From positions 1 through 64,000 of the forward strand of contig VFJL01000007.1 in assembly GCA_009886095.1 (NCBI GenBank): 64,000 nucleotides of DNA, read 5' to 3'. Positions 21,525 through 34,082 of this stretch are shown piece by piece (within the stretch, counting starts at the first letter, position 1; every line of letters starts with the position of its first letter). The notes under the pieces were generated by a model. The model ran no database searches. It saw only the letters and a program-made list of their open reading frames with translations, and had not been told where the DNA came from. Made by a program: the position numbers and the translations under genes. This DNA comes from Nitrosomonadales bacterium. GTDB taxonomy: Bacteria; Pseudomonadota; Gammaproteobacteria; Burkholderiales; Nitrosomonadaceae.

Positions 21525-22172
21525 ATGATTATCTCTTTGTGCTTTACATGGTTATCACAGCAACACCGGCTCCCGGCGGTTCTGCTTGCCGGATTGCTGA
21601 TATTTACTACGCAGACAACAACTGCTACCGGCTACAGCGTAGGCGAGCGGTTGCCGTCTGTTCCCGCGAAGAGCACTGGCAAAGCAATACCTCCAACAAC
21701 CCCCTCGACAACTTTGGCAACCACTTACAAAGAAATAACGTGGGACAACTTGATGCCCAAGAACTGGGATCCAATGGCCCCGTTAAAAGGATTGAAGCTC
21801 GACAATCTCAGAGACGGTGATCCGCGTGCGATCGACGCATTGGAGAAAATACGCGAGGCATGGAGCAACGCACCGATTGAGCCTGCCTTAAACGGCGCGC
21901 GCATTCGTCTGCCGGGGTTCGTGATTCCTCTGGATAAAGTGGGCGACAAGGTTAGCGAATTTTTATTCGTGCCTTATTTTGGCGCCTGCATTCATACGCC
22001 GCCACCGCCGTCCAATCAGATCATTCATGTGACGGTATCAAAACCCATCACTGGCATGCGCACGATGGATACCATGTGGGTCAGCGGCGTCATGCATGCC
22101 GGCAAGGTCGATACTGAAATGGGGCAAGCCGGTTACCAGTTGAAGGCCGAAGTGGTGGTGCCTTACAAATAA
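21525..22172 (+). CDS. DUF3299 exported protein
   Basis: 215 residues with an N-terminal signal/anchor (LPAVLLAGLLIFTTQTTT) and a DUF3299 domain: WDNLMPKNWDP, IRLPGFVIPLD and EFLFVPYFGACIHTPPPPSNQ with a conserved cysteine and histidine. The family commonly follows ABC genes in zrg-like operons and is probably periplasmic. It starts 4 bp after the permease gene. A degraded copy of its 3' third lies at 24348-24590 beyond the beta-lactamase-like gene. Confidence 0.78.
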   Translation: MIISLCFTWLSQQHRLPAVLLAGLLIFTTQTTTATGYSVGERLPSVPAKSTGKAIPPTTPSTTLATTYKEITWDNLMPKNWDPMAPLKGLKLDNLRDGDPRAIDALEKIREAWSNAPIEPALNGARIRLPGFVIPLDKVGDKVSEFLFVPYFGACIHTPPPPSNQIIHVTVSKPITGMRTMDTMWVSGVMHAGKVDTEMGQAGYQLKAEVVVPYK

Positions 22173-22335
22173 CCTTAACGGGTATTTTCCTTAAAATTCT
22201 CTACAAAAGAGGCAAGAATAGTAGATTAAATCGAGTCTGATCTTATTTGTTTTTTTCTCCAACTTTTAGTTGGATGCTACTGATACCGTATACACTCTCT
22301 TGTATGTTTAACAAAAATTAAAGGATGAAACTATT

Positions 22336-24132
22336 ATGGCCGTGAGATTCTACAATCGCAACATTCCCGACGAATGTCATCTGCAGATGAAGGCCATTGG
22401 AAAATCGGGAGACGGCATTGCCTGGGTCGCTTTTGCACCCGGCGCCAACCATTTCAGTATTGTCGCGAAGAACGGAGGATATTTTAATCGTAATATCCCG
22501 GATGAATGCCACAAACAGATGGGCGAGTTGTCGAAAAATGGCGCTAAGATTATCTGCGTGGCGTTTCCGCCAGCGGGTGGAAACAGTTTCAGTATTATTA
22601 ATGATCACGGCGAGTACTTCAATCGCAACATTCCAGATGAATGCCACACACAGATGGGCAAGTTATCGAAAAATGGCGCCAAGATCATCTGCGTGGCATT
22701 TCCGCCGGAAGGTGGAAATCGCTTCAGTATCGTGAATAATCAGGGCGCATATTTCAATCGCAACATTCCAGATGAATGCCATACACAGATGGGCGAGTTG
22801 TCGAAAAATGGCGCCAAAATCATTTGTGTGGCGTTCCCAAAGCAGGGGGGGAACAGTTGGAGCATCGTCAATGACCAGGGTGGCTTCTTCAATCGCAATA
22901 TTGACGAAGAAGCACACATGATCATGCGGTTCCAAAGCTCGGTTTATGGTCCACTGAGAATCGTCGCGTTCGACGGGGATGGCAAAGGATGGTCGGTCAC
23001 ATCAAAAGTCACAAAGGCTGAGAAAATCTGTGATGCGACAAAGTGTGCGTCGATTGCGGAAATCTACGAAAAAATTCAGGCAAGGTTGGACGGCAAGGTG
23101 GTCGGGTACGCGTGCACGGTGGGTGCTGGTGCGGTCAGCACTTTCTCGCAGGGATGGGCGCGAACGGCGGCCGATGCACCCGCGAAGCAGTTCCTGCCTT
23201 CCACGAAAATTACGGTGGCGAGTGTCGCAAAGTTCGTCACTGCCGTGGCGGCGATCCGCGTATTGGCAAAAAATAATGTAGGCCTTGACACGGCAATTGG
23301 CGGGCATTTGCCGGGTGATTGGACGCTGGATGCGAGCGTTTCGTCGATCACGTTCCGGCAGTTGTTGTCGCACAGCAGCGGTATCAAGGATTATGGGAAT
23401 GTCAGCATGGATTACGCTCAGCTGAAGAAATTTTTCACGCAGACGGTGGATAAGACTAAAAACACGTCATGCCAAGGGGCTCAGGTGGTGAACCCGGCGA
23501 ATCCGATTAACCCGAATAATAAAGGACGCTGCTACAGCAATTACAACTTCGCGATCTTCCGCGTGCTGTTGCCGTGGATTGACGGGTTCACGGACGATCT
23601 GGCGCATCGTCCACAGAAATTAGCGGATGCCTACGTAAAAATTGTGGAGAAGAACGTTTTTGCACCGGTTGGTGTAACCGGTATGCTGGCGAAACCACCG
23701 GCTTCTGGACCTCAAGCGACGAGCTATGCGTTCTCTTACAAGTTCCCCGGAACGAGCAAAGGTGTGGACTGGGGCGATGGGACGTTAATTGTGGGCGCAG
23801 CCGCGTGGTATCTGGCGATCGAGGACATTGCCGCCGTGTTGTTCAGCTTAAACAAGAAGGATGACCGCATTCTGACAGACGCACAGATCCAGGACATGGA
23901 GACAACGGTGATGGGCTGGGATAAAGCGACGGATTCGGCGGGTAATCGATGGGTGGAGAAGAACGGTGGCTGGGGCGCGAATGGTACGACAATCAGTACC
24001 TCGGTCGCGTTATTTGGACCAGGACTGTTCGGCGCATTATTCCTGAACTCGGATATTGCGGGGGAAGCCGGGGTAGGAGCGGAGACAGTGCTACATGATG
24101 CTTGGCTTGCGGCAATGAAACCGAAGAGTTGA
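22336..24132 (+). CDS. Beta-lactamase-family serine hydrolase with five N-terminal 45-residue repeats
   Basis: 598 residues in two parts. Residues 1-225 are five tandem repeats of about 45 residues built on FNRNIPDECHxQM, KNGAKIICVAFP and GGNSFSIV; the fifth is divergent. Residues about 240-598 are a class C beta-lactamase/DD-peptidase-like domain with the serine motif S296-V-A-K and the tyrosine motif Y400-S-N. The protein has no signal peptide, which is unusual for this hydrolase family. I do not recognise the repeat domain; it may bind a ligand or surface. A ribosome binding site AAGGAT precedes the ATG. The gene lies between two copies of DUF3299 sequence. Confidence 0.8.
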   Translation: MAVRFYNRNIPDECHLQMKAIGKSGDGIAWVAFAPGANHFSIVAKNGGYFNRNIPDECHKQMGELSKNGAKIICVAFPPAGGNSFSIINDHGEYFNRNIPDECHTQMGKLSKNGAKIICVAFPPEGGNRFSIVNNQGAYFNRNIPDECHTQMGELSKNGAKIICVAFPKQGGNSWSIVNDQGGFFNRNIDEEAHMIMRFQSSVYGPLRIVAFDGDGKGWSVTSKVTKAEKICDATKCASIAEIYEKIQARLDGKVVGYACTVGAGAVSTFSQGWARTAADAPAKQFLPSTKITVASVAKFVTAVAAIRVLAKNNVGLDTAIGGHLPGDWTLDASVSSITFRQLLSHSSGIKDYGNVSMDYAQLKKFFTQTVDKTKNTSCQGAQVVNPANPINPNNKGRCYSNYNFAIFRVLLPWIDGFTDDLAHRPQKLADAYVKIVEKNVFAPVGVTGMLAKPPASGPQATSYAFSYKFPGTSKGVDWGDGTLIVGAAAWYLAIEDIAAVLFSLNKKDDRILTDAQIQDMETTVMGWDKATDSAGNRWVEKNGGWGANGTTISTSVALFGPGLFGALFLNSDIAGEAGVGAETVLHDAWLAAMKPKS

Positions 24133-24347: not shown

Positions 24348-24590
24348 GCGTAGGGCGAGTTTTTACTCGTGCCTTATTTCGGTGTTTGCATTCACATGCT
24401 GCCGCCGTCCAATCAAATCACTCGTGTGCCGGTACAAACGCCATCCTTGGTATGCGCACGATGGATGCCGTGTGGGTCAGCGGCGTCATGCATGCTGGCA
24501 AGGTCGATACTGAAATAGGGCAGGCCGGTTACCAGTTGAAGGCTGAAGTGGTGGTGCCTTACAAATAATTTCAACGGGTCTTTGGGATAC
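24348..24590 (+). pseudogene. 3' fragment of a second DUF3299 gene
   Basis: The stretch from TTTTTACTCGTGCCTTATTT to the TAA near 24568 repeats the last third of the gene at 21525, including the final residues GYQLKAEVVVPYK and the following CAACGGGT. It has point changes and a small deletion that shifts the frame near the CCGCCGTCC position, and its 5' two thirds are absent. It is a decayed duplicate, not a working gene. Confidence 0.8.
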
Positions 24591-24684: not shown

Positions 24685-27600
24685 ATGCTTGGTCAATTTT
24701 CTGATTTCTACAATAGTCTTGATGCCGACCCAGCCAAGCGGGGCAAGCAGTTCGAACACTTCGTCAAATGGTTCCTGAAAGCCGATCCTGAATGGTCAAC
24801 CCAAGTTGACCAGGTGTGGCTGTGGGATGAATGGCCGGGGCGATGGGGTGCGGACTGCGGCATTGATCTGGTGATTCTCCACAAGGACGGCAATCACTGG
24901 GCGGTGCAGGTCAAGTGCTATTCACCCGACTATCACATCACCAAACATGATGTAGACAAATTCCTCAGCGAATCGAACCGGCCGCTCATCAAACACCGCC
25001 TGCTGATCGCCACTACCGACCGTATCGGAGCGAATGCCAAGCAAGTCTGTGAGGCGCAAGAAAAACCCGTCATACGCTTTCTGCTGTCCGACTTCGAACG
25101 CGCCGCGCTAGATTACCCCGCCAATTTTGCCGCACTCTCACAAGCCAAACGCAAAGCTCGTCCCGAACCGCGCGACCACCAGCACGAAGCCAGAACCGCC
25201 GTGGTGCAAGGGCTGCAAACCGCTGACCGTGGCCAGCTCATCATGGCCTGCGGCACGGGCAAAACTTACGTCACGCTGTGGATCAAAGAGCAGTTGGACG
25301 CGCAACGCACCCTGGTGCTGGTTCCGTCCTTGGGGCTGCTGTCCCAACTGCTGCGCGAATGGACATTTGCCGCCGCCACCCCGTTTGAAGTGCTGTGCGT
25401 TTGTTCCGATCAAACCGTTGGCACCAAGGGCAACGACGAAGCCATCCACAGCGTGGCTGATCTGGCATTTCCCGTCACCTCGGATGCCGACGAAGTAAAA
25501 CATTTTCTCAGTGGCGCAGGCAACCGCGTGGTTTTCTCTACCTACCAATCTTCCTCCGTCATCGCCGCCGCCCAAGCCGACCCAGCCATCCCCGCGTTTG
25601 ATCTGGTCGTGGCGGACGAAGCCCACCGTTGCGCGGGCAAGGTTAGCAGCGACTTTACCACCATCCTGGACAATGCACAGATACGCAGCACCAAGCGGCT
25701 ATTCGCCACCGCCACCCCGCGCACTTACTCCAGCACCGTCCATAAAGCTGCCGAAGATCGCGGCGTCGAAGTGGTCGGCATGGATAACGCTGCCCTGTTT
25801 GGCGAGGTGCTGTATGCCCTGCCGTTTGGCAAAGCCATCGAACGCAAACTGCTCACCGATTACCGCGTTGTCATCATCGGCGTGGACGACCCCACCATCG
25901 CGCAGTGGATCGCCAACCGCGAACTGGTCACCATCGGCACGGGAATCGAGACCGACAGCGAATCGCTCGCCGCCCAGATTGGCCTGCTCAAAGCCATCAA
26001 AGACTACGACCTCAAGCGCATCATCAGCTTCCACAGTCGCGTCAATCGCGCCGAAGCTTTTACCACCGACATCCAAAGCATCATGGCATGGATCAGCGAC
26101 GAACATCGCCCCAGCGGAACCCTGCGCACCGACTTTGTCTCCGGCAACATGCCCGCCAACAAACGCAAGATCAAGCTCGATCAACTCAAAGCCCTGAGCG
26201 CAGATGAACGCGGCGTGCTGAGCAATGCGCGCTGCCTGTCCGAAGGCGTGGACGTGCCCTCCCTCGATGGTGTGGCGTTTATTGACCCGCGCAGCAGCCA
26301 GGTGGACATCATCCAGGCCGTGGGTCGCGCCATTCGCCTGAGTGCTGACAAGAAGGTCGGCACGATTGTATTGCCGGTGTTTATCGCAGCCGGACAAAAT
26401 GCCGAAAACACGATAGAGGCCAGCAACTTCAAGCCTATCTGGGATGTGCTGAACGCGCTCAAAGCGCACGATGATGTGCTGGCTTGCGAACTGGATCAGA
26501 TTAGAACTGAGATGGGGAGGAAATCCGGGGCAGGCATTAGCGCTGACGGCCTGCGAAAAATTACCATTGACCTACCCACTACAGTAGATACGAATTTCGG
26601 CAGCGCACTGCGCACCTATCTGCTGGAGCAAGTCACGGCGTCTTGGAATTTTTGGTTTGGGTTGTTGGAGGCGTTCGCAGATCGAGAGGAGCATGCCAAG
26701 GTTCCTCAAGATTACAAAACGGCAAATGGATATCGTCTTGGTCAGTGGGTAGGAAGCCAGCGAAACAAAAAAGACAACATGCCACTGGAGCGCAAAGCAC
26801 GGCTGGAAGCATTAGCTGGTTGGAGTTGGGATGCTTTGTCAGATAAGTGGGAAGAAGGATTTCGCCATCTCAAGAAATTCGCAGATCGAGAGGGGTATGC
26901 CAAAGTTTCTCAAGGTTGTAAAACGGTAGATGGTTATCGAATCGGAACCTGGGTAAGTTTTCAACGAGTAACAAAAGACAAAATGTCGCCGGAACGCAAA
27001 GTTCGGCTGGAAGCCTTGCCCGGTTGGAGTTGGGATGCTCGTGCAGATAATTGGGAAGAAGGATTTTGCTACCTTAAAAAGTTTGTAGAACGTGAGGGGC
27101 ATTGTTTGTTTCCCGCACTATATAAAACAGAAGATGGATATCGACTCGGTGGCTGGGTAAGGGAACAACGAACAGCAAAAGACAATCTATCACCAGAGCG
27201 CAAAGCGCGTCTGGAAGCGTTAGCTGGTTGGAGTTGGGATGCTTTGTCAGATAAGTGGGAAGAAGGATTTCGCCATCTCAAGGAATTCGCAGAACGTGAG
27301 GGGCATTGTTTGCCTCCTGCGCGATACAAAACGGCCGATGGATACCGCCTTGGTCAGTGGGTATCAAAACAGCGGCAAAAAAAGGACATCATGTCACCAG
27401 AGCGCAAAGCTCGGCTGGAAGCTTTACCCGGTTGGAGTTGTGATCCTTTTAAGGATATATGGGAAGAAGGATTTCGCTACCTCAAGGAATTCACAGAACG
27501 AGAAGGGCATGCCAAAGTTTCTCAAGGTTGTAAAACGGTAGATGGTTATCGACTCGGTGGCTGGATAAGGAACCAACGAACAACAAAAAACAACCTTTCG

Positions 27601-27861
27601 CCGGAGCGCAAAACACGGCTGGAAGCATTGCCCGGTTGGAGTTGGGCTACACATGTAGATAATTGGGAAGAAAGATTTCGCTATCTCAAGGAATTCGCAG
27701 ATCGAGAGGGGCATACCAAGGTTCCCGCGCTATACAAAACGGCAGATGGATATCGCCTTGGTCGGTGGGTAAGTAACCAACGAGCAATAAAAGACAACCT
27801 GTCACCGGAGTGCAAAGCACGGCTGGAAGCATTACCTGGTTGGGTTTGGCGAGTTGAGTGA
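24685..27861 (+). CDS. Nuclease-SF2 helicase fusion with six helicase-associated repeats
   Basis: 1058 residues. The N-terminus (about 1-150) has a Mrr-like restriction endonuclease core with GIDLVI and AVQVKCY. The SF2 helicase follows: Walker A ACGTGKT (about 188), [10 protein letters not shown] (about 309), FATATPRTY and the motif VI region [14 protein letters not shown]. From about residue 650 to the end there are six helicase-associated repeats of about 68 residues, each with [17 protein letters not shown], YRLGxWV, QR and [17 protein letters not shown]. Such proteins are thought to act on DNA, often in mobile or defence regions. Repeat copies are also similar at DNA level, so copy number may vary. 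Confidence 0.85.
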
Positions 27862-27929: not shown

Positions 27930-28937
27930 ATGCACGCATTCACTAAACGCAATCACTATAACCCCTGCTTCTGGACCGGTCTGTGGAATCATGATTACTT
28001 CGAGGCTCGAAAGCGTGGCACTCGAACCAAACCAGCTCGGGCGCAACATGTGTTCGCGCTTGGCATTCGCGCCAACAAGGTTTATCCGACCGTAGTTGAC
28101 AATGTTCATTACGCGGAAGGTCTCGGGGTTGCGGAGATTACGCCAGAAACTATGAAGCAGTTCTGTCAGAAGCGGTTTCCTGATCAGCACGAAAAATTGG
28201 CATGTTATGTGGACGAACATCCAGAAAGCCTGTTCATGGATTTCGAAGATATTCTGGTGGGCGTCGAGCAGAAAGGTAAGTATGACCTCCTGATCGATGC
28301 AGCCATGCTCGGCGGCTTTTCTTCAAACGAGCATAAGGGCTTCATAACGTGCCTGCTCGTCATTCATGCGATGCGGAGCTACGAAATGATGGCATCAATG
28401 GTCGAGTTGTCTGAGTCCATCGGCATGCCAAAATGGGAGTACTTCTGGCTTCTGAAGAACGCTTGGGCGAACCAGTTCGTGCTCGCTCGCGCCACCGTCG
28501 CGCTGGCCTGTGCCCGGTGGACTTTGTATCGAACCGACGAACATCGCTTTCCGCTTTGCGATTCGCCGATCATGATGGGTCGGGATTCGATGATGGCCGT
28601 TCTATCCCCCCGGCTGCTGGTTGAGATCGATTTGAAAGTGGCTTCTTCCGAAGACTCGTGGGTGATCCGCGACGGAATCAGCTTCAGCAAGTACCGCGAA
28701 TTCCGAAGACGATCGATCGGTAATACGTTTCGCGAGATAATCTTCCATGATTCCAAAGAACTTGAGTGCTGGCGCGACACGCCGGAATTCAAGGCACGGC
28801 TTCGGTCCCTCGCTGAGCCCACAGCCGCGCGTCAACTTGTGGCCGATGCCGCCAACCGCGTCATCTGGGGTCTAAACGGTTTTGGACGCGTGCCCAGAGA
28901 GTTTGAGAGTTGGATCAAAGATCGGGTCGATGCCTAG
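27930..28937 (+). CDS. DUF4238 domain protein
   Basis: 335 residues. The N-terminus HAFTKRNHYNPCFWTGLWN has the NHY-P-W pattern of DUF4238, and the later FPLCDSPIMMG and MAVLSPRLLVEID match the family's second conserved part. No catalytic role is established for it. It is cytoplasmic by sequence. It follows the nuclease-helicase on the same strand after 68 bp, so it is part of the same accessory segment. GTTAGGC at 27874-27880 just upstream resembles a recombination core, but that alone is weak. Confidence 0.65.
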   Translation: MHAFTKRNHYNPCFWTGLWNHDYFEARKRGTRTKPARAQHVFALGIRANKVYPTVVDNVHYAEGLGVAEITPETMKQFCQKRFPDQHEKLACYVDEHPESLFMDFEDILVGVEQKGKYDLLIDAAMLGGFSSNEHKGFITCLLVIHAMRSYEMMASMVELSESIGMPKWEYFWLLKNAWANQFVLARATVALACARWTLYRTDEHRFPLCDSPIMMGRDSMMAVLSPRLLVEIDLKVASSEDSWVIRDGISFSKYREFRRRSIGNTFREIIFHDSKELECWRDTPEFKARLRSLAEPTAARQLVADAANRVIWGLNGFGRVPREFESWIKDRVDA

Positions 28938-30716: not shown

Positions 30717-33700
30717 TCAACCTAGTTTTCGTAATTGTTCCTGCAGCTTTTCCAGTGTTGCAGCGAAATTTATCAGGCGTTCCTTTTCCTGCTGCACTAC
30801 CTTGGTCGGGGCACGTTCGACGAAACTGGGATTGGCAAGTTTGATTTCGGCCTTGGTGGTTTCACCTTCGATGCGGGCAATTTCCTTGGCCAGGCGTTCA
30901 CGTTCAGCGGCTATATCAATCTCGATTTTCAGCATCAATCTGAATTCGGCAACGATCGCTACTGGCGCATCGGCATCGGGCAATTTATCCTGCATAATTT
31001 CTACACCGGATAACTTAGCCAGCGCCATCAGGTAGGGAGAGAAATCGGTCAGGGTCTGCTGATTTCCCGCCGCCAGCAGCGGGACTCTTGCTGCTGGGGA
31101 TAGATTCATTTCACCCCGCAGAGTACGGCAGGCGTTGATTATTTCCTTGAGTTCAGCGGTGCGCTTGCTGGCATTTGCGTTAATGCGGGTGGCATCGGCC
31201 TTGGGGTAGGGCTGGAGCATGATGCTCGAACCTTGCTTGCCTGCAAGCGGTGCGATTTTCTGCCACAACTCTTCGGTAATGAAGGGAATGATGGGATGGG
31301 CAAGCCGTAACGTGGTTTCCAGTATGCGTACCAGAGTGTGGCGGGTAGCGCGTTGAACCGCATCGTTGCCACCATTGAGCTGCACTTTGGCAAATTCCAG
31401 GTACCAGTCACAATATTCATCCCAGACGAATTCATAAATTTCCCGCGCTGCGATATCGAAACGGTAATCGTGAAATGCTTGCGCTACCGCACTCTCTGCC
31501 TGCTGCAAGCGACCGATGATCCACTGGTCAGCATCGGAAAATTCCAGCGGCAGCTCATTAGTCGAATCAGCATCCAGACCGGTATCCTTTCCCTCACAAT
31601 TCATCAGCACATAGCGGGTGGCATTCCACAGCTTGTTGCAGAAATTGCGGTAACCTTCACAACGTTGCATATCGAACTTGATGTCGCGGCCGTGGGAGGC
31701 GAGGCTGGCAAAAGTAAAACGCAGCGCATCGGTACCGAATGCGGGGATGCCTTCGGGGAAATGCTTACGGGTGATTTTTTCAATCGACTCAGCCTGACTG
31801 GGATTCATCAGCCCGGTGGTACGCTTGGCGATCAGATCCGGTAGCGCGATCCCGTCGATGAGATCCAGCGGGTCCAGCACGTTACCTTTGGACTTGCTCA
31901 TCTTGTGGCCTTCCGAGTCGCGGATCAGGCCGGTTACATAGACTTCGTGGAAGGGCACCTTGCCGGTGAAATGCAGCGACATCATCACCATGCGGGCCAC
32001 CCAGAAGAAGATGATATCGAAGCCAGTGACTAGCACCGACGTCGGCAGAAAAGTCTTGAGTTCCGGCGTTTCTTCCGGCCAACCCAGGGTCGAAAATGGC
32101 CACAGCGCGGAAGAAAACCAGGTATCGAGCACATCCTCATCCCGCATGAGTTCACGCTCGCCGGCTTGCTGTTGCGCTTCCTCCTGGCTGTGGGCAACGT
32201 AGATATTGCCATCCTGGTCATACCATGCGGGAATCCGGTGTCCCCACCATAATTGGCGTGAGATGCACCAGTCTTGAATATTTTCCAGCCATTGGTTATA
32301 AACGTGGCTCCAGTTATCTGGCACGAATTTTACTTCGCCCTTTGCTACCACTTCTAGACCGCGCTTGGCCATACCTTCCATTGCCACATACCACTGATCA
32401 GTGAGCATCGGCTCGATCACTGCATGGGTGCGGTCGCCGCGCGGCACCATTAGCTTGTGTGGTTTGATCTCTGCCAGCAACCCCAGTGCGTCAAGGTCAG
32501 CGATGATTTTATTGCGCGCGGCGAAGCGATCCATGCCCTGATACTCAACTGGCGCGAGATCATTTATTTTTCCGTCCAGTGTGAAAATATTGCGTGGAAC
32601 CAACTTGTGCCGCAACCCCATTTGGTAGTCATTGAAATCGTGCGCCGGGGTAATTTTCACGCAACCGGTGCCGAATTCCGTATCCACATAGGTGTCGGCA
32701 ATGATCGGAATGCTATGCCAGGTTGCAGGGGTACTGGCCGATAATGGCAGATGCATAGCGCGGCCAATCAGGTACCGGTAACGCGGATCATCCGGATGCA
32801 CGGCAACTGCCATATCACCCAGCATGGTTTCAGGACGAGTGGTGGCAACAACGAGATGGGTTAGTCCATTTTGCAGATCCGGCTCCACCAGCGGATAGCG
32901 AATATGCCAGAGGAATCCATCTTCCTCGGTCGACACCACTTCCAGATCGGATACTGCAGTTTGCAGCACCGGGTCCCAGTTCACCAGCCGCTTGCCACGG
33001 TAGATCAGCCCCTCGCGATAAAGCCGTACGAACACTTCGGTGACAGCACGGGATAAGCCTTCATCCATGGTAAAGCGCTCGCGTGACCAGTCGCAGGAAG
33101 CCCCCAGCCGCCGCATCTGGCGGGTGATGGTGGAGCCAGACTCTTCCTTCCACTGCCACACGCGTTTGAGAAATTCCTCGCGTCCCAGGTCACGGCGGTT
33201 GATGTTCTGCTGATCCAGTTGCCGCTCAACCACGATCTGGGTGGCGATACCGGCGTGATCGGTTCCCGGTTGCCACAAGGTGTTGTCACCGAGCATACGG
33301 TGATAGCGAGAGAGCGCATCCATCAAGGTGTGCTGGAACGCATGCCCCATATGCAGTGTGCCGGTGACGTTGGGCGGCGGCAGCATGATGCAGTAGGCGG
33401 GAGCAGTTGCAGCAAGCACTTCATCGGTCATGGGTTTGAAATAACCGGCGGATTCCCAGACGGAATACCAGCGGTTTTCAATAGGCTGAGGGTCAAAACT
33501 TTTTGTGAGATCCATGATGATCTGGCTTGAATCTGTTGGCGCTGAAAAGTTGGTCATTTTAGAGGAAGGTGTAGGCACAGGGATCATGACGGGTTGATTC
33601 CAATCCGCTTTCAAGCTGGAGTCGGAATGAGATGAGTTTTGCAAAAAGCATGCGTCCACATCTGAATTATAATTTTCAGCGTGATTTGGATTAAGCGCAA

Positions 33701-34082
33701 CCGGAGATGCTTGCAAATGCCGTTCCAGCGCCCGAATCAATGCTACTTGCGCCACGCTATCCAGATCAATCTTCGCTTCCTTCAGCGCAGTATCCAGAAT
33801 CTGTCGTAGCGGTGGCTTGATCTCGGATTGGAGTATCGGGGTTGCAGCAGAGAGAAATACTACCTCTGTGAGGGTAGGGATGTCACCGGTTGCTGAGGAT
33901 ATGGTTAGCTGCGTTGTGCTATCAAAGATCTGGGTGAGAACCGGAATTGATACTTCATTACTATCCACTTCAGTTTCAGTTGCTGCGGCGACCTTGCCCT
34001 GGTGCCTGCTCAGTAACGCATTCAGCTTGTCCAGAACCTCATTATGATCGGACTTTGGCGAATTTTTATTGTCGTCTGTCAT
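30717..34082 (-). CDS. valS: Valyl-tRNA synthetase with about 190-residue N-terminal extension
   Basis: 1121 residues, where ValS normally has about 920-960. The synthetase proper starts near residue 190 ([17 protein letters not shown]), where ATG 33515 could be a separate start. It has the HIGH variant [16 protein letters not shown], the editing domain, the KMSKS motif ([14 protein letters not shown]) and the C-terminal coiled coil. The extension is acidic, low in hydrophobics, and has a repeated pattern [15 protein letters not shown], like small uncharacterised beta-proteobacterial proteins. It runs in frame with no stop. Neither start has a good ribosome binding site. The gene is last in pepA-holC-valS. 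Confidence 0.93.

Follow-up and report, generated by a model that had tools for sequence, protein, structure and literature searches.

The window analysed here, meaning the whole stretch of 64,000 nucleotides, comes from a Nitrosomonadales bacterium whose genome assembly amounts to 2.11 Mb in 81 contigs. On its forward strand, at 22,336-24,132, an open reading frame (ORF) of 598 residues with an ATG start encodes a five-repeat N-terminal domain followed by an S12/class C beta-lactamase-like hydrolase, as established from the ORF list, Pfam and close homologues; its coordinates and length are exactly those given by an earlier reading made without database searches (the sequence-only reading). 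A likely ribosome-binding site, AAAGGA (22,320-22,325, forward strand), can be read 10 nt upstream of the ATG, and AAGGAGG is read at this position in the copy carried by Candidatus Nitrotoga SPKER. Five tandem repeats of about 45 residues each (43-45) span residues 5-226, N-terminal to the hydrolase domain: a diverged repeat 1 (residues 5-48; 22,348-22,479), repeats 2 (49-93; 22,480-22,614), 3 (94-138; 22,615-22,749) and 4 (139-183; 22,750-22,884), and a degenerate repeat 5 (184-226; 22,885-23,013), all on the forward strand. Repeats 2, 3 and 4 agree pairwise at 37 of 45 residues and repeat 5 matches them at 13-14 of 45, while repeat 1, at 44 residues, is one shorter than repeats 2-4, its low ungapped identity count reflecting a comparison out of phase by one residue; these identities thus mark out three near-identical copies (2-4) and two diverged ones (1 and 5). 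In the DNA the repeat period is 135 bp (Tandem Repeats Finder score 504), with three copies of 196 nt that are 74-100% identical to the reference copy and five copies of 40 nt that are 68-100% identical to theirs, so that the regular five-by-45-residue repeat described by the sequence-only reading is borne out in both DNA and protein.

The identity of the hydrolase domain is nearly certain. Residues 252-568 (23,089-24,039, forward strand) match the beta-lactamase-like family PF00144 at E 3.3e-21 and 76.3 bits, against a curated cut-off of 27, which upholds the sequence-only assignment, and the two motifs then listed as intact are confirmed by sequence and by alignment with relatives: S296-V-A-K299 (23,221-23,232) and Y400-S-N402 (23,533-23,541), both on the forward strand. 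To these the alignment with relatives adds a third, previously unlisted, K542-N-G544 (23,959-23,967, forward strand), which aligns, beside a gap, with H-N-G in a Roseibium relative and H-D-G in a Nonomuraea relative, and SxxK, YxN and K/H-x-G are therefore all present. By analogy with the family, we take S296 to be the nucleophile and K299 the general base. The enzyme itself is one of a very large superfamily of hydrolases. A profile of four sequences (window, MKT, SPKER and Nonomuraea) has its best match in the Protein Data Bank (PDB) in Pab87 (2qmi, E 2.8e-10), and also matches Flp, D-Ala-D-Ala carboxypeptidases, LACTB and esterases. The likeness to Pab87 and the CubicO S12 peptidases lies in the hydrolase domain and its SxxK and YxN motifs, but the window protein has K-N-G where CubicO has H-x-G, and an N-terminal repeat domain instead of a C-terminal lipocalin domain. 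Of the two features by which CubicO peptidases are defined in the available part of the source, a C-terminal lipocalin-like domain and an FFYLN motif (PMC2651629), the window protein has neither, ending 30 residues past the PF00144 match and reading CYSNYNF in the corresponding stretch.

Upstream, the conserved edge of the site is formed by a DUF3299 gene (21,525-22,172, forward strand; PF11736, E 3.6e-43), present in seven of nine same-genus genomes, the window's own included. The downstream edge of the cargo is a degenerate second copy of the 3' end of this gene (24,355-24,583, forward strand), which matches 21,955-22,187, that is the last ~230 bp of the DUF3299 gene plus its 3' flank, at 201 of 233 columns (86%, with gaps). 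A similar arrangement occurs in another genome of the genus (G007; contig C66, 1-4200, locus L016), where two more 3'-end copies lie downstream of the DUF3299 gene, separated by other small ORFs, one of which is methyltransferase-like by eye. Elsewhere in the genus the gene is followed by other genes (G006 and G001), directly by a valS-like gene (G002) or by a contig end (G003). The recurrence of DUF3299 3' ends past the cargo suggests an insertion hotspot that copies the end of the gene, and the hydrolase gene is best read as accessory cargo in this insertion-prone site. Beyond the second copy, at 24,685-27,861 on the forward strand, lies a gene for a 1058-aa protein with an Mrr-type endonuclease, a superfamily 2 helicase and six helicase-associated (HA) repeats of ~68 residues, the first ~600 residues of which are recognised by PADLOC models of type IIG/I restriction enzymes; the 335-aa ORF directly after it (27,930-28,937, forward strand) is matched neither by a Pfam model above cut-off nor by PADLOC. 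PADLOC also returned no match for the hydrolase.

Relatives and movement between lineages

The proteins of Candidatus Nitrotoga MKT and SPKER are 95% and 94% identical to that of the window over their whole length. Silent and amino-acid-changing codons number 59 and 16 in the N-terminal part and 74 and 12 in the C-terminal part against MKT, and 62 and 20, and 81 and 13, against SPKER; by these counts the gene is evidently under purifying selection in both halves. In DNA the window's hydrolase gene is 90.1% and 89.3% identical to the MKT and SPKER copies, whereas the valS ORF (30,717-34,082, a valyl-tRNA synthetase by eye) reaches 70.5% and 70.4%; at the protein level, valS (matched over residues 167-1121) is 73% and DUF3299 56% identical to the counterparts in the same two genomes. 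MKT and SPKER are 89.3% identical to each other in the hydrolase and 87.9% in the valS region, and three same-genus genomes have a valS that is 79-84% identical to the window's. Since the hydrolase gene is 90% identical in DNA to the Nitrotoga copies while valS is 70% identical, the simplest reading would be a recent horizontal transfer between the window's lineage and Nitrotoga, which is nitrite-oxidising, or else into both from a shared donor. Judged from these genes, the window's lineage is probably not Nitrotoga itself. The MKT and SPKER copies sit at another locus, beside a CorA-type gene (by eye); this CorA-type gene was not found in the nine same-genus genomes at E <= 1e-40, a search that was run without a positive control and shows little. 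The apparent passage of the hydrolase gene by itself from one lineage to another suggests that it is useful on its own.

Beyond the three close copies, the nearest relative of the repeat domain is an unannotated ORF of the actinomycete Nonomuraea gerenzanensis (locus L006, 3908-5746), with five repeats and a PF00144 domain (E 1.6e-41), 36% identical to the window protein over the N-domain and 30% overall. The whole two-domain architecture is alike; the Nonomuraea ORF differs in having a twin-arginine-type leader (RRRFLTLAG), H-D-G as its third motif and a different sequence before YxN. The sequence-only reading had proposed looking for the repeat in other proteins, and in the collections covered here it was found in MKT, SPKER and Nonomuraea. 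Otherwise it is scarce: 27 records of a plasmid collection match the whole protein and, of the 20 listed, none but Nonomuraea extends over most of the repeats; the N-domain is absent from all 40 relatives and all 397 other genomes of the phylum that were drawn (the draws overlap), and the whole-protein profile found nothing in 368 other genomes of the class at E 1e-30. A phage origin was rejected, the N-domain being unmatched at E <= 0.1 in 50,697 phage records, and viral contigs giving 1 and 41 pattern matches, none of them a confirmed relative. The architecture is rare and mobile, its repeat unmodelled, but a structural counterpart has been published.

Affinities and fold of the repeat domain

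In scans of the window protein and of its N-terminal part, no Pfam or NCBIfam model credibly fits the repeat domain. NusG_II reached 32.5 bits on the N-terminal part alone (cut-off 29.6) but 28.8 bits, below that cut-off, on the whole protein, and its signal, consisting of two short stretches, was judged spurious; together with DUF7099 and the FitA-like RHH family it was rejected as a score accumulated across the repeats, the best stretches being 12-41 residues long and nothing elsewhere lending support. The NCBIfam model dsbE was discarded likewise (19.2 bits against 123).

Comparison of profiles is more informative, and at that level the link to WD40 (PF00400) is much stronger than that to BTRD1 (PF17660). 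Aligned with hhalign, 20 repeats of the present type against 17 bacterial WD40 repeats (those usable from 20 loci, L045, L049 and L035 being left out) gave a probability of 94%, P 1.3e-7 and a score of 33.6, where 100 column shuffles reached at most 14.4 and the reversed profile 8.4; Nitrotoga-type repeats alone scored 29.2 and those of Nonomuraea alone 31.9. Against 23 BTRD1 repeats the score was 12.7 (P 0.019), a value equalled or exceeded in 3 of 200 shuffles, with Nonomuraea alone at P 0.0058 and Nitrotoga-type repeats alone at P 0.35; these 23 were picked by hand, omitting duplicates in L057 and degenerate or cut units of L056, L033, L032 and L059, and an earlier comparison with 12 repeats had scored 11.2, with 4 of 100 shuffles as high. 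The BTRD1 and WD40 profiles show no mutual resemblance (scores 8.0 and 6.8). A BTRD1 unit has ~50 residues, a helix followed by two strand-like segments, and the weak profile similarity to the window's repeat runs in the same helix-strand-strand phase; the window's repeat lacks the W-x-A-R-H-G signature, however, having VAFPPxGG and PDECH instead, and does not match the Pfam model. The remark of the sequence-only reading that it recognised no family for the repeat holds in that there is no credible Pfam match, while the match to a well-described domain that it named as a refutation is partly borne out, WD40 being a detectable relative and BTRD1 a weak one.

In several of the proteins examined BTRD1 units also stand five in a row, and in some they are fused to peptidase-like domains. 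One such protein (L033, 940-2244, reverse strand, genome G071) shows no evident leader and joins five BTRD1-type repeats to a stretch resembling annotated papain-like cysteine proteases; in two others, L032 (2347-4191, reverse strand, genome G412), which has five, and L059 (genome G618), the repeats stand behind a region that is M23-peptidase-like by eye. The BTRD1 profile built here matches the polyglycine hydrolase structure 7tpu in the PDB at E 2e-8 with one significant stretch, which ties BTRD1 to the N-domain of those enzymes; the top row of that search, a designed PPR protein at E 1.2e-12, had no significant single stretch and was read as a repeat artefact.

As to the fold, two AlphaFold2 runs on input alignments of 3-4 rows both turned the PDECHxQMxxL stretch of every repeat into a helix, five in all, mostly followed by strands, in models of low confidence (mean pLDDT 44.5 for the full length; 58.9, with pTM 0.50, for the N-domain); a leading strand of at least 3 residues appears in four of five repeats in the first model and in two of five in the second. 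Independent support for the helix comes from the hydrophobic period of this segment, which, averaged over 14 distinct segments, has its maximum at the helix value of 100 degrees per residue (0.287, against 0.178 at 170). The corresponding figures are 0.167 against 0.096 with a peak at 115 for BTRD1, and 0.259 against 0.215 with a peak at 140 for the 7-residue stretch of WD40 strand d. Hydrophobic residues, counting Ala and Cys, occupy i, i+4 and i+7 in 17 of 20 repeats, 15 of the 20 coming from three near-identical proteins. Foldseek found no match at E <= 0.001 for the full-length or N-domain model, and most of the 50 VIA matches listed for the latter bear titles of WD40/NHL-type propellers, with Z 6.5-7.5, values that may reflect only a common arrangement. 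Cysteines spaced 16 residues apart, one in helix and one in strand, recur in repeats 2-4 (58/74, 103/119 and 148/164), and Nonomuraea has one pair so spaced (95/111, numbered along its translated frame); these cysteines may be buried thiols or disulfides.

These observations bear on what the N-domain is. That it is a divergent five-bladed WD40-like beta-propeller, with PDECHxQM as the outer strand d and a role as a protein-protein docking platform, draws on the hhalign score and its persistence in the Nitrotoga-type and Nonomuraea repeats taken separately, on a sub-threshold Pfam WD40 match in Nonomuraea (21.9 bits, cut-off 27), on a profile match of the N-domain to the WD-40 structure 2ymu (E 2e-11 summed over repeats, 0.07 for the best single stretch) and on the propellers that dominate the listed structural matches. 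Repeat length is similar too, but the likeness is confined to 24 columns around VAFxPxG (L-x(n)-V-x-x-VAF-x-P-x-G), the GH and WD signature dipeptides are absent by reading, the window protein has no Pfam WD40 match, there are five units where WD40 propellers usually have seven, and the segment that should form strand d has a helical hydrophobic period and is predicted as a helix in both AlphaFold2 runs, so that we regard a true propeller as doubtful. We entertain just as tentatively the idea that the repeat represents an unnamed family joining two folds that are treated as unrelated, WD40-like blades and the strand-helix-strand-strand (EHEE) units of the polyglycine hydrolases' N-domain, the outer strand of the blade having turned into a helix; if true, this would be a cytosolic serine protease or amidase, guided by a repeat disc and passed among bacterial lineages, which would make it easy to use in testing the role of that orphan N-domain.

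The published counterpart is the fungal polyglycine hydrolases, which, in the available text of their structural description, carry five 44-residue EHEE repeats before a class C beta-lactamase-like domain, as seen in Fvan-cmp (PDB 7tpu), the N-domain being a novel fold that occurs across all kingdoms and has no known function (PMC9912923). Of the sequence-only verdict of a novel repeat domain, what survives is that the repeat is poorly catalogued; the architecture, on the same partial source, had already been published (PMC9912923). With Fvan-cmp, Bz-cmp and Es-cmp the window protein shares the order of five ~44-residue repeats (here 43-45, with the helix and strands of an EHEE unit predicted at low confidence) and class C beta-lactamase-like domain, the nucleophile motif and the AmpC-type tyrosine, but its repeats are highly alike where theirs are poorly alike. 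Domain order, repeat number, repeat length and the weak in-phase BTRD1 match would all suit a true relative of these enzymes, with a BTRD1-type barrel as N-domain and glycine-rich linkers as its target. We nevertheless consider such kinship distinctly improbable: the PF17660 model matches nothing in the window's genome at E <= 10, and 7tpu was absent from PDB sequence matches of the whole protein (E <= 1), the N-domain (E <= 10) and the profile (E <= 0.1). Moreover, the fungal enzymes are secreted and the third motif of Fvan-cmp has phenylalanine in place of glycine, as given in the available text (PMC9912923), whereas the window protein is leaderless with K-N-G intact. 7tpu was also not among the 60 of 70 matches listed in a further PDB search, nor among the listed structural matches of the full-length and N-domain models, from which no exclusion follows. 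Given the missing sequence link to 7tpu, the missing leader and the intact third motif, the window protein likely works in a similar way, by analogy, rather than belonging to the family.

Site of action and proposed working

Where the enzyme acts depends on its leader. An in-frame stop lies 8 codons 5' of the ATG in the window, giving a stop-to-stop frame of 606 aa, and the MKT and SPKER copies, with an identical start MAVRFYNRNIPDECH, have theirs 8-9 codons ahead of the ATG; in all three proteins, from two different loci, repeat 1 begins directly at the N-terminus with like first residues. The window alone has a short hydrophobic stretch in another frame (MLLIPYTLSCMF), ended by a stop before the ATG and not kept in MKT or SPKER, and the other upstream frames of the three hold no common leader. 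The absence of a signal peptide noted by the sequence-only reading thus extends to all three close copies, and a missed upstream signal peptide, which it had named as the way it might be wrong, is excluded for these sequences, since each starts at repeat 1 just after a stop and no leader is common to them upstream. That reading also held a cytoplasmic location to be odd for the fold, yet cytoplasmic members are not unusual, NylB and EstB being examples. The missing leader would place the action in the cytoplasm, barring some export route that goes unrecognised. What speaks against so simple a location is that the cysteines C232, C237, C379 and C399 are conserved in an Aquabacterium relative, together with a leader-like stretch in that relative's frame (judged by eye); the Roseibium relative has a cysteine near C379 and one at C399. 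These features and the twin-arginine-type leader of Nonomuraea would fit an exported hydrolase of the cell wall or of D-peptides that leaves by an unrecognised route or has recently lost its leader, an alternative we think unlikely, because the three copies, from two different loci, share their first residues and all start at repeat 1, and silent changes far outnumber amino-acid changes among them.

Our preferred reading, to which as a whole we assign a probability of about 0.55, is that the protein is a substrate-guided S12 (class C beta-lactamase-like) serine peptidase or amidase with a built-in binding disc; the disc-like EHEE fold and the guiding role of the N-domain are what we infer. Each repeat would fold as strand-helix-strand-strand and the five units together would form a small closed disc or barrel like that of polyglycine hydrolases. 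The disc would bind a partner, protein or peptide, and thereby bring a flexible segment to the active site, where S296, activated by K299 and Y400, would attack an amide or ester bond, forming an acyl-enzyme that water then frees. Peptide bonds or D-amino-acid/N-acyl amide bonds seem likelier substrates than beta-lactams. Within the library searched, and as far as its available texts extend, the enzyme is not described in the literature on polyglycine hydrolases, the bacterial tandem repeat domain or Nitrotoga beta-lactamases, and the words 'lactamase' and 'peptidase' are absent from the available main text of the Ca. Nitrotoga fabula genome paper (PMC6050957).

The hydrolase is real and conserved, and its body plan resembles that of a known fungal protease rather than being wholly new. 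As a leaderless bacterial protein with compact, partly near-identical repeats, it offers a simple system for asking what an N-domain of the polyglycine-hydrolase type binds, and the WD40-like signature of its repeat would hint at the origin of that fold.
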